A DNA stretch of 64,000 bases from an uncultured Pelagibacteraceae bacterium (GTDB lineage: Bacteria; Pseudomonadota; Alphaproteobacteria; Pelagibacterales; Pelagibacteraceae), in contig CACLNT010000004.1 of the NCBI GenBank assembly GCA_902608385.1, forward strand, positions 31,165 to 95,164, written 5' to 3'. The translations under genes were made by a program, and so were the position numbers. The notes under the pieces were generated by a model that ran no database searches, was not told the origin of the DNA, and worked only from the letters and a program-made list of their open reading frames with translations. Of this stretch, positions 46,782-52,268 are shown in pieces (positions within the stretch are counted from its first letter, which is position 1; every line of letters starts with the position of its first letter).

Positions 46782-49112
46782 ATGAGATTATTAATCATTT
46801 TTATTTTATTCTTAACTTTAAACACTGCCAAAGCTGAAGTTGTTTCACCTACTTATGTACAAACTGTTGCTAGCAATGTTACTATGCCCTCAGGTATCAT
46901 ATTAAGTCCTGATGGAACAAAAATTTTCATGAGTAGTTATGATGGGGATGAAAAAATTTATCAGTTTAATTTAACAACTCCTTTTGACATATCTACATTA
47001 GACACTTCAAGCGAAGTAAGTTTAAATTTAAACGATGGGTCTGATGACTTGATGGATACATATATTCAAGGAATTGTATTTAATAATGATGGTACAAAGA
47101 TTTTTGCAATTGATCAAACTGGTTTAATGAATGTTCATTCTCTATCAACCCCTTATGATATTTCAAATTTCACACAAGATGCAGATGATGGACTAGAATG
47201 GGATGAGGATCAGACTTTATATACTGATGACGATGGTGATTTTGAACCTCATGATATAACTTTTAATAACGATGGAACAAAAATGTATCTTTTTGATTAT
47301 AATGGAGACGAAGTAGTTGTTGAGTATCACTTAAGCACTCCATTTCTTCCAAGTTCTGCATCACTTGGTAATGTTTTAGATTTAAATGATGTTAATGAAA
47401 AATTTCTTCAAGATTTAAGGTTTGATGATGATGGAACTAGAATGTACTTAATCGATTCTGGAACAGGCGATGGTGCTTGGAATTTTTATGTTTATAAACT
47501 ATCTACTGGTTTTGATGTTTCAACAGCAACATATGTTGGGAAACTAGCAAACTTTTTTGATGCAAGTGGTGGTCAAGGAACGCCTTTAGGAATGCACTTT
47601 TCTACAGATGGAATGAAATTGTATCAAGTTACATATAGAGGAGACTCTGCGAATAAGATTCACGAGTATAATCTTAGTTGTCCCTATGGAATTGTAATTT
47701 GTGAGGCAGATTCTATTTCTAATGTTGGTGCACAAGTAGAATTTGCAAAACACGTAATACAACAAAATACATCTACTGTTTTTAAAAGATTTGAATGGTT
47801 AAGACGTAATGAGGGTAAAAATAACCTTAATAATCTAACTGCTTCCATCAAATTAGATAACCCATTGTTAAATTACTGGATTAAAAAACTTCCTACCAAA
47901 ATAGTTTCAGTTAATGGCGCAGTGGAAAATGGTCGGTCTATAACTATTGGTCATGAAAATAAAAATAGTAACAACTTAGATAATTTTACGACTGCCATTA
48001 AATCAGATAACCCGTTGTTAAATTCTTGGATGAATAAACTTCCAGAAAAAATAACTGCACATAGAGCGTCCCTTAAAGAGAAGTCAAGTAAAAATAAAAA
48101 AACTATAAAAACCAAAAATAAGAATTGGGCTTACTGGTCTCATGGCGATATTTCATTTGGCAGAAAAGGTGACACCGCAACCTCTAAACCAAAAGAAATA
48201 AGAGTTTCAGGTTTAATGTTTGGTGCAGATAAAAAGATAAATAATAATAAGTTTGTTGGCGCAGCTATTAGATTTGGTAAAGGTGAAATTGAAAACATAT
48301 CCCCCGGTGGTATTGAATTAGACACAGAGTCATTAACATTAAATTTGTATAGCACTCTTCCAGTAAATAATAATTCTAACCTTAATGCTTTAGTTGGTGT
48401 AAGCTTGTTAAGAATAGATCAACTCCTATCAAATGAAATTACTGGTGAAAGAAACGGTAAACAAGTTTTTACAGCTTTTAATTTAGAATCTAAAGATAGT
48501 TATGGGAATTTTAACATAAGACCTACAGGCAAGTTTGAGTTTGGTGTTACTCAGTTTTCTAAATACACAGATTTTGGAACTTCATCAACTAACAGCCAAG
48601 ACACATACGACTCTCTTACATTTAAAACTGGAAATATTGCAGCAGGTTTTAAATTTGATAATTTAATCGATATCAACGATGGTAGACTTAGCCGAAACGG
48701 AAGTCTTGAATATATTAGAGATTTAACATCAAACATTGATTATAACTTTAAAAATAGCTCAGATAATGTTTTAGTAACTAAGACTGCCGAAACACATTCG
48801 ATACATAATATCAAAGGTAATCTTGGCTTTGAGATATTATATGAAAACGGTTATACATTTGCTTTAAATTATGAAAGATTTCAAGGACTAGATGACAGTA
48901 GTCATCAAGATAGTATATTCTTTAAATTTGGCCATCTACGTGAAGAAGATTCTGAGTTTGCCTTCAATTATAAACCATTACAAAATAATCAAATGGAACT
49001 AAGCTATGTTAAAGATGTTAATGGTTTTGATGTTAAAGTTATTTCAAATTACAGTTTAATGAACGAAATACCTGACTATGGAGCAAACATAGAAGTTTCA
49101 AGCACATTCTAG
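46782..49112 (+). CDS. Large outer-membrane autotransporter-like protein with beta-propeller-like repeats
   Basis: A 776-residue secreted protein. Residues 1-18 are a signal peptide. Residues ~30-300 hold five repeats with the core 'xFxxDGTKxYxxD' ('GIILSPDGTKIFMSS', 'DITFNNDGTKMYLFDY', 'LRFDDDGTRMYLIDS'), suggesting a beta-propeller. Residues ~330-420 contain two similar segments ('LTASIKLDNPLLNYWIKKLP' and 'FTTAIKSDNPLLNSWMNKLP'). The last ~320 residues alternate like a 12-strand barrel and end with Phe (SSTF), as autotransporter translocators do. No protease triad is recognised. Probable role: surface display or adhesion. Confidence 0.78.
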   Translation: MRLLIIFILFLTLNTAKAEVVSPTYVQTVASNVTMPSGIILSPDGTKIFMSSYDGDEKIYQFNLTTPFDISTLDTSSEVSLNLNDGSDDLMDTYIQGIVFNNDGTKIFAIDQTGLMNVHSLSTPYDISNFTQDADDGLEWDEDQTLYTDDDGDFEPHDITFNNDGTKMYLFDYNGDEVVVEYHLSTPFLPSSASLGNVLDLNDVNEKFLQDLRFDDDGTRMYLIDSGTGDGAWNFYVYKLSTGFDVSTATYVGKLANFFDASGGQGTPLGMHFSTDGMKLYQVTYRGDSANKIHEYNLSCPYGIVICEADSISNVGAQVEFAKHVIQQNTSTVFKRFEWLRRNEGKNNLNNLTASIKLDNPLLNYWIKKLPTKIVSVNGAVENGRSITIGHENKNSNNLDNFTTAIKSDNPLLNSWMNKLPEKITAHRASLKEKSSKNKKTIKTKNKNWAYWSHGDISFGRKGDTATSKPKEIRVSGLMFGADKKINNNKFVGAAIRFGKGEIENISPGGIELDTESLTLNLYSTLPVNNNSNLNALVGVSLLRIDQLLSNEITGERNGKQVFTAFNLESKDSYGNFNIRPTGKFEFGVTQFSKYTDFGTSSTNSQDTYDSLTFKTGNIAAGFKFDNLIDINDGRLSRNGSLEYIRDLTSNIDYNFKNSSDNVLVTKTAETHSIHNIKGNLGFEILYENGYTFALNYERFQGLDDSSHQDSIFFKFGHLREEDSEFAFNYKPLQNNQMELSYVKDVNGFDVKVISNYSLMNEIPDYGANIEVSSTF

Positions 49113-50263: not shown

Positions 50264-51178
50264 TTAATCTATTGGATAATTCCAAGCATCACCTCCAATA
50301 ATTTTTGATATTGCTGAGAAATCTTTAGCACCATTACCTTCTTCACAAAATTTATTATAAATTTCTAAAGCCATAGTACCAAGAGGAGTGGAAGCTTTAA
50401 CTTGTTTTGCGCACTCATTAGCTAACTTTAAATCTTTATTCATCATACCTGCAGAAAATCCTGCTCGATAACTATTATTAGATGGAGTGCCTTCAATTAA
50501 ACCAGGTAAAGGTGGATAGACAGATATAGGCCAACTATTACCAGATGCATTTTTCATTATTTCGTGAACTTTTTTAATATCGATATTTAATCTTTTTGCT
50601 AACATTAAAGATTCAGAGGCTGCAATCATTGTAATGCCTAAAGACATATTATTACAAATTTTTGCTCCATTGCCACTTCCAAGCTCTCCAGCATGAAAAA
50701 TATTTTTTCCCATAATTTTTAATAAAGGTAGCGCAAGATTAAAAGCTTCTTTCGTTCCACCTGCCATAATATTTAAATTTGCTTTTTGCGCACCCATGAC
50801 ACCACCACTTACTGGGGCATCAATCATTTTAATTCCTTTTTCTGTAGCTTTTTTTCCTATTTCAATTGAAGTTTGAATATCAATTGTAGAGCAATCAATA
50901 AGAAGGCAATTTTTTGATACTTTATTAATTATGCCTTTGTCTCCTAAATAAACTTCTTTTGAGTTTTTACCTTCAGGCAACATTGTTATTACAGTAGTTA
51001 CTTCTTTTGTAATTAAAGCATCTAAGTTTTTTACAACATCAAGTTTTTTTTCTTCTGCTTTTTTGACCATTTTTTTTGAAACATCAAAAACTTTGACTTT
51101 TTTTCCTGCTTTCATTAAATTTTCGGCCATTGGACTTCCCATATTACCAACGCCAATGAACGCTACTTGTTCAGTCAT
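50264..51178 (-). CDS. 3-hydroxyisobutyrate dehydrogenase family protein
   Basis: A 304-residue beta-hydroxyacid dehydrogenase. The NAD(P) motif is 'FIGVGNMGSPMAENLMKAGK', the substrate loop is 'DAPVSGGVMGAQKANL' and the catalytic Lys is in 'GSGNGAKICNNMSL'. Substrates in this family include 3-hydroxyisobutyrate, tartronate semialdehyde and 3-hydroxypropionate. It is the last gene of the minus-strand run of small proteins, 21 bases after an SMR gene, and has a good ribosome-binding site (AAGGAG). Confidence 0.87.
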   Translation of the reverse strand: MTEQVAFIGVGNMGSPMAENLMKAGKKVKVFDVSKKMVKKAEEKKLDVVKNLDALITKEVTTVITMLPEGKNSKEVYLGDKGIINKVSKNCLLIDCSTIDIQTSIEIGKKATEKGIKMIDAPVSGGVMGAQKANLNIMAGGTKEAFNLALPLLKIMGKNIFHAGELGSGNGAKICNNMSLGITMIAASESLMLAKRLNIDIKKVHEIMKNASGNSWPISVYPPLPGLIEGTPSNNSYRAGFSAGMMNKDLKLANECAKQVKASTPLGTMALEIYNKFCEEGNGAKDFSAISKIIGGDAWNYPID

Positions 51179-51199: not shown

Positions 51200-51535
51200 T
51201 TAATTTACTTTACCTAGTAAATTTACAATTAAGACCCCAGCTATAATTAAAGTAATTCCAATCAAACCATACAGATTGGGCATTTGGTTATATTTAATAA
51301 TTCCAAATATTAGTATTGATGCAACTGTAACTGCGCTGTAAGTGGCATAAGCAAAACCAACTGGTATTGCTGACATTCCTTTTGCAAGTGAAAACATAGT
51401 TACACACATTAAAAGTAAACAAGCAATGCTTGGTGCTAATTTTGAAAATCCTTCAGACATTTTTGCAAGACTATTTGCAATTATTCCACATGATATAGCA
51501 ACAAATAAAAAAATATACCCAGTGAGTGGTTTCAT
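51200..51535 (-). CDS. SMR-type small membrane transporter, second of a tandem pair
   Basis: A 111-residue four-helix protein aligning with EmrE/QacE. 'KMSEGFSKLAPS', 'PVGFAYATYSAVTV' and the terminal 'GVLIVNLLGK' match family blocks. By hand alignment the helix-1 glutamate (EmrE Glu14) is replaced by Gly ('AISCGIIANSLAKM'), and the helix-3 tryptophan (Trp63) by Tyr. Without the glutamate the usual proton/substrate exchange should not work. It starts one base after its paralogue ends and probably forms a heterodimer with it. Confidence 0.8.
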   Translation of the reverse strand: MKPLTGYIFLFVAISCGIIANSLAKMSEGFSKLAPSIACLLLMCVTMFSLAKGMSAIPVGFAYATYSAVTVASILIFGIIKYNQMPNLYGLIGITLIIAGVLIVNLLGKVN

Positions 51536-51536
51536 A

Positions 51537-51872
51537 TTAGCTAGTTTTTCCTAACAAGTTTACAATTAAGACACCAGCTATAATTAGCGCGAGTCCTATT
51601 ATTGTATAAAGATCAGGCATTTGTTTGAACTTATACATACCAACAATTGTGGTTGCCACAATACATAATCCTGCAAAAGAAGCGTAAGTTATTCCTACAG
51701 GAATTGTTTTCATGACGAGCGATAAGGTAAACATGCATCCAACAATGGTTATAGCTGTAATAATACTTGGTATTAATAATGTAAAACCTTGAGCACCTTT
51801 AGCAAAACCATTTGATGCAGTTCCTAATACAACTGCAATAATTAAAATTATGTAAGCTGTGATATTACCCAT
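51537..51872 (-). CDS. SMR-type small membrane transporter, first of a tandem pair
   Basis: A 111-residue four-helix paralogue of the next gene. Shared ends ('DLYTIIGLALIIAGVLIVNLLGK') show that the pair arose by duplication. The helix-1 position equivalent to EmrE Glu14 is again Gly ('VVLGTASNGFAKG'), and the Trp63 position is Phe (TYASFAGLC). Both members share the loss, so it is not a one-off mutation. Encoded six bases after a VOC-family gene within the small-protein operon. Confidence 0.8.
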   Translation of the reverse strand: MGNITAYIILIIAVVLGTASNGFAKGAQGFTLLIPSIITAITIVGCMFTLSLVMKTIPVGITYASFAGLCIVATTIVGMYKFKQMPDLYTIIGLALIIAGVLIVNLLGKTS

Positions 51873-51878
51873 TATTTT

Positions 51879-52268
51879 TCATTTACCTACTAAACATCTA
51901 GCTGTGATTTTATTTCCATCTAAATCACGAACATACCCATAATAATTTCCATCAGATCTTGGTCCTGGGTCACCTTCATTAACAGCTCCATTTTCTAGTG
52001 CAGTTGCATGAAATTTGTCGACAGCCTCTTTTGTTTTAGCTGATAGAGCAACCATTGTACCGTTGCCTACAGTAGCAGTTTCTTTATTATGAGGTTTTGT
52101 AATATAAAATTTAACTCCATCATCTTCACTTGAATGACCGTAACCGATATATCTTTCTGTAACAGTAACTCTTTTCATTCCAAGATGAGCCAAGACGGCA
52201 TCGTAAAACTTGCTTGATTTTTCAAGTTCATTAGTCCCTACCATAACAAAACCAATTACTTTATTCAT
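51879..52268 (-). CDS. VOC (glyoxalase/bleomycin resistance) family protein
   Basis: A 129-residue protein with the VOC fold pattern: 'VIGFVMVGTNELEKSSKFYD', 'GNGTMVALSAKTKEAVDKFH' and the C-terminal 'YVRDLDGNKITARCL'. Likely metal-dependent isomerase, dioxygenase or binding role. It overlaps the preceding SnoaL-like gene by one base (stop-start), so translation is coupled. Confidence 0.84.
   Translation of the reverse strand: MNKVIGFVMVGTNELEKSSKFYDAVLAHLGMKRVTVTERYIGYGHSSEDDGVKFYITKPHNKETATVGNGTMVALSAKTKEAVDKFHATALENGAVNEGDPGPRSDGNYYGYVRDLDGNKITARCLVGK

Follow-up and report, generated by a model that had tools for sequence, protein, structure and literature searches.

A pair of SAR11 SMR-family proteins with glycine in place of the helix-1 glutamate Glu14

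The two genes and their family

The window, which is the whole stretch of DNA analysed (64,000 nucleotides from an uncultured Pelagibacteraceae bacterium), contains two tandem genes on its minus strand, B and then A, with 1 bp between the stop codon of B and the start codon of A. Both encode proteins of the SMR family. The features of the locus are listed by window position; names such as Gly14 refer to positions in EmrE.

50264..51178, minus strand: 3-hydroxyisobutyrate-dehydrogenase-like gene, downstream neighbour (above the TIGR01692 cut-off; recurs beside the pair)
51200..51535, minus strand: SMR-family protein A of the Tyr63 type, 111 aa long, with Gly where EmrE has Glu14 (PF00893 6e-18; EmrE by phmmer 6e-17; model pLDDT 91, TM 0.80-0.82 to EmrE)
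51338..51340, minus strand: Tyr66 of A, at EmrE Trp63 (alignment; homologue census)
51473..51475, minus strand: Asn21 of A, at EmrE position 18, codon AAT, Asn invariant in the clade (sequence; homologue census)
51485..51487, minus strand: Gly17 of A, at EmrE position 14, codon GGA (sequence; alignments)
51537..51872, minus strand: SMR-family protein B of the Phe63 type, 111 aa long, with Gly where EmrE has Glu14 (PF00893 1e-14; EmrE by phmmer 2e-13; model pLDDT 92, TM 0.81 to EmrE and 0.78 to Gdx-Clo)
51675..51677, minus strand: Phe66 of B, at EmrE Trp63 (alignment; homologue census)
51810..51812, minus strand: Asn21 of B, at EmrE position 18, codon AAT, Asn invariant in the clade (sequence; homologue census)
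51822..51824, minus strand: Gly17 of B, at EmrE position 14, codon GGA (sequence; alignments)
51879..52268, minus strand: glyoxalase-fold protein, upstream neighbour (PF00903 5.5e-9; recurs beside the pair)

Upstream of the pair, small minus-strand genes encode a DUF1330 protein, two SnoaL-like proteins and the glyoxalase-fold protein. A cysK-like gene and a gene for a 98-aa protein without a Pfam match accompany them on the minus strand between 51879 and 56767; this interval looks like a variable gene region, its genes coming and going from one SAR11 genome to the next. Positions 46782-49112 of the window encode a protein of 776 aa that is repetitive in its N-terminal part and resembles an outer-membrane barrel in its C-terminal part. 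An Rfam scan of the 64-kb window for riboswitch control gave no match, and scans for promoters and terminators gave no more than chance-level results.

Both proteins belong clearly to the SMR family as defined by PF00893 and have the EmrE/Gdx fold. In the profile check recommended with the original prediction, both match PF00893 over its full length and far above the curated cut-off of 23.7 bits, with 65.6 bits for A and 55.3 bits for B. Placement among the EamA half-transporters (PF00892), which had been allowed for, is ruled out, since PF00893 scores clearly higher, A and B (25.8 and 15.3 bits) both fall below the EamA cut-off of 28.2, and the genome's own canonical Glu14 SMR, used as a control, matches EamA equally weakly (25.6 bits). 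The AlphaFold2 monomers, built from family alignments, have pLDDT values of 91-92, and their best matches in the PDB are EmrE and Gdx-Clo, with Foldseek TM values of 0.80-0.82 and 0.77-0.78, respectively; a four-helix EmrE/Gdx fold is predicted for both proteins, with high confidence for the monomers. Among the subtype models, those of the Qac exporters match A and B at 1e-19 to 1e-21, yet the scores lie far under the curated cut-offs of every Qac model. The polyamine models (MdtI/MdtJ) also score far under cut-off, and the ArnE model gives E-values of 0.024 and 0.0015 (14.8 and 18.7 bits, against a cut-off of 92).

Loss of Glu14 and its conservation

The original prediction placed glycine at the position of Glu14 in both tandem proteins, and our alignments bear this out. 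The MAFFT alignment of A and B with EmrE has no gaps and sets Gly17 of each protein on Glu14, as does the hhalign profile-profile alignment with the Glu14 SMRs, which is gapless over 106 columns; the codons were read directly. With phmmer against the EmrE chains, the same placement was confirmed for A, and the local alignment of B has a 3-residue gap within helix 1; B is without a helix-1 acid in any register. The objection raised beforehand, that a better alignment might bring an acid into helix 1, does not hold, as none is available in or near the helix. Thr18 is replaced by Asn in both proteins and the switch residue Tyr60 is retained, while Trp63 is replaced by Tyr in A and by Phe in B, as had been anticipated. 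The only acid of A is Glu28, in loop 1, and the only acid of B is Asp87, in loop 3; neither protein has a histidine.

The orthologue survey proposed with the prediction took the form of a census of distinct sequences, 82 of A type and 102 of B type, almost all of which come from SAR11 genomes. Gly14, Asn18, Lys22 and Tyr60 are invariant in all 184. An acid within the bilayer-spanning core occurs in 0 of the 184, and the search for a buried replacement acid accordingly found none in the TM helices. Position 87, where TM4 starts, is Glu in two of the B sequences, and in 42 of the 184 the stretch from EmrE position 4 to 105 is free of Asp, Glu and His. Near the membrane edges, A has Lys (rarely Arg) at 49 and B has Lys at 52, and TM2 of the family is hydrophobic except for a Lys near its loop-2 end. 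The second glycine (Gly67) of the GXG fulcrum in TM3 is replaced across the 184 homologues by Thr or Cys and, in rare cases, by Ala or Gln; as read from the alignments, its loss shows that the hinge is changed too. Set beside the proton-coupled SMR subtypes (Gdx, Qac and polyamine), the 184 distinct homologues keep the Tyr60 switch in every case and lack the central TM1 glutamate, the tryptophan at 63 and the GXG fulcrum.

All four glycine codons are in use at position 14 and, taken with the invariance of Gly14 and Asn18, this makes the glycine more than a chance occurrence. The median dN/dS is 0.08 for A and 0.08 for B, next to 0.077 for the canonical SAR11 Glu14 SMR, which rules out decaying genes. 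Because of the conservation, the four codons and a dN/dS of about 0.08, we regard the residue change as maintained and not as drift.

Distribution and mutual independence of A and B

In the public genome collection, the label attached to close relatives of the pair is Pelagibacteraceae or Pelagibacterales in nearly every case. At 1e-15, the A/B profile matches 165 of the 198 Pelagibacterales genomes that are at least 85% complete, and about 156 of these 165 are of the Gly14 type, a figure taken from the score gap and not from one-by-one reading; in additional genera whose sequences were read, all are Gly14. Across the class and phylum (about 780 genomes), the next-best matches that were read have Glu14 and Trp63, except for a Gly14-Asn18-Tyr63 protein in G437, outside the order, which is the sole non-SAR11 Gly14 SMR found. 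The viral contigs scanned with an A-type query yielded no relative, and SAR11 SMR proteins without Glu14 were not described in any of the open-access literature that we searched.

In the FastTree phylogeny, the Gly14 proteins are monophyletic (support 0.987) and divide into sub-clades B (0.96) and A (0.70); the outgroup sequences of SugE, MdtI and MdtJ served for rooting only. A and B are paralogues in a SAR11-centred SMR subfamily, and the single Gly14 clade suggests that Glu14 was lost once, ahead of their divergence.

A separate SMR with Glu14 and Trp63 is present in many SAR11 genomes, this one included. This canonical protein (L001:1489-1818) has Pro at EmrE Lys22 in 9 of the 9 sequences read, another departure from EmrE. 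As it is encoded by the genome of the window and by many related ones, A or B could dimerise with it and tune its activity, and a precedent for a partner without Glu14 is the PSMR protein YvaD (PMC2716321). We give this partner role very little credence: the canonical gene is not beside the pair but on a different contig (C19, against C4), several near-complete genomes that bear A, such as G004 and G849, have no canonical SMR match, and purifying selection acts strongly on both A and B, unlike on YvaD.

The original prediction also suggested that A and B might form an obligate heterodimer, in which neither partner would be useful alone. Numbers of A and B per genome and locus were obtained by a six-frame search. 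In genomes with both, the genes are adjacent, B stands ahead of A in most loci, and the frames often abut or overlap, an arrangement that speaks for such a heterodimer. Against it, two one-contig genomes that are 99-100% complete have A without B (G012 and G397) and one that is 98% complete has B without A (G063); A and B both served as queries for G012 and G063, and the A/B profile and B for G397. In some loci (L034, L039 and L148) the two genes of the pair do not share a strand. The Lys/Arg bias, computed by the formula of PMC9574504 for the 73 loci with both genes, is about +1 for A and about 0 to +1 for B, and opposite signs are absent in nearly all of these loci, whereas more than 95% of adjacent SMR pairs show opposite bias (PMC9574504). 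Of the paired SMR (PSMR) traits of adjacent genes and opposite bias, A and B show the first. A and B are independent of each other in some genomes, and obligate heterodimerisation, already contradicted for the A/B family as a whole, has only a slim chance of applying; together with the missing opposite bias, the A-only and B-only genomes leave the fixed-topology form unsupported. The near-zero bias and these same genomes are consistent with dual topology, and dual-topology homodimers, possibly with some mixing, would fit better.

Transport mechanism and known SMR systems

Three SMR subtypes, Gdx, Qac and polyamine, use a pair of central glutamates as the binding site for the cation as well as for the protons exchanged against it (PMC9574504). 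Since A and B have no acid within the membrane, carboxylate-based proton antiport by these proteins appears very unlikely. The original prediction of a different mechanism or substrate is favoured by the loss of Glu14 and the missing replacement acid in the TM helices, and the conservation and purifying selection point to such a change rather than to decay; which mode of transport and which substrate are involved we only infer.

We propose, at about even odds, that A and B are uncoupled SMR carriers. Glu14 would have been lost once, before A and B diverged. The proteins retain the fold of the family and the switch residue Tyr60, and their pocket would be free of charge and lined by Asn18, Tyr60 and Tyr63 or Phe63. 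They would form antiparallel dimers of dual topology, for the most part homodimers, and would work by uncoupled alternating access, that is, by facilitated diffusion or exchange, so that the substrate probably crosses the membrane passively. The candidate substrate class is a small neutral, zwitterionic or amphipathic metabolite. Two observations count against this account: the altered GXG fulcrum (Gly67 to Thr or Cys) may affect or block alternating access, and the genes have no constant operon partner.

Across the SAR11 loci no neighbour gene is constant, and neighbours vary by clade. The recurrent ones are of metabolic and stress type: cysE/cysK-like, DUF1330, SnoaL, glyoxalase, DSBA-fold, DUF2798 and HIBADH-like genes. 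Elsewhere, the SMR gene follows a GFA gene in G085 and lies near a HAD hydrolase gene in G397. The start of the B-type gene of G063 (L213:504-1711) is abutted or overlapped by the gene of a PAP2-superfamily phosphatase. In G437 (L212:8641-10246), the Gly14 SMR gene comes directly after a DddP-like M24 gene (369 bits; DddP cut-off 600), and genes for phosphonoacetate hydrolase and phosphonoacetaldehyde dehydrogenase, both above cut-offs, are nearby. As leads on the substrate, the PAP2, GFA, HAD hydrolase and DddP-like genes diverge in direction.

The PAP2 neighbour, whose gene end the B gene of G063 meets directly, would suit a lipid or glycolipid flippase like ArnE/ArnF, passing an amphipathic lipid down its gradient through a membrane portal in TM2. 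The hydrophobic TM2 would agree with this, and the lipid subtype is the known Glu-less SMR subtype and keeps the Tyr switch (PMC9574504). We nevertheless hold a flippase to be unlikely, because the PAP2 link occurs in one genome only, the annotated recurrent neighbours include no glycosyltransferase or lipid A modification genes, and similarity to ArnE is negligible compared with the Qac models.

The closeness of those Qac cation exporters would instead favour an electrophoretic uniporter, which would take up a cationic nutrient by means of the membrane potential and whose pocket would still hold organic cations through Tyr60, the aromatic residue at 63 and the amides of Asn18; the separate Glu14 SMR retained by SAR11 relatives could then serve for export. 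In Gdx and Qac, however, the cation is bound by glutamates, which are absent here, so that a carboxylate-free pocket would be a poor cation site, and the invariant Lys22 and the lysines near the membrane edges would not help. Cation uniport is, in our judgement, less probable still than the flippase.

Should the uncoupled-carrier reading be right, the family could represent a fifth SMR subtype, naturally uncoupled and nearly acid-free, widespread in SAR11 and serving a neutral or zwitterionic metabolite, in which a proton-driven exporter would have become a facilitator as Gly14 and Asn18 replaced Glu14 and Thr18; we put this somewhat below even odds. Glu14 is the best studied SMR residue and is considered essential in three of the four subtypes, and the SAR11 Gly14 clade offers a ready test of whether a minimal SMR scaffold can act as an uncoupled carrier, and for what. 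As SAR11 is very abundant in the sea, what A and B carry may have a bearing on how dissolved organic matter is cycled.

The Qac SMRs (EmrE, QacC/G/H/J) resemble A and B in best sequence match, length, fold, Tyr60 switch and near-zero bias, and differ from them in Glu14, Trp63, Thr18, the GXG fulcrum and the level of the model scores. An annotation of A and B as proton-driven drug pumps is probably wrong, even though both score above the threshold of PF00893 and, among characterised models, come closest to those of the Qac exporters. The polyamine SMR MdtI/MdtJ is an adjacent gene pair, as A/B is, and MdtI has Ala-Asn at positions 17-18. Unlike A and B, MdtI/MdtJ requires the central Glu and Trp (PMC9574504). 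ArnE/ArnF also lack the central glutamate and are suggested to be uncoupled (PMC9574504); they often have Asn at the Glu14 site, where A and B have Gly, and they differ in sequence and operon context and have a known lipid substrate. In the YvaD/YvaE pair, YvaD is without Glu14 as well (PMC2716321), but it is poorly conserved and under little selection, whereas the paralogues A and B both lack Glu14 and are strongly conserved. SMR proteins without the glutamate are thus already known from ArnE/F and YvaD, and A/B is a further such variant.
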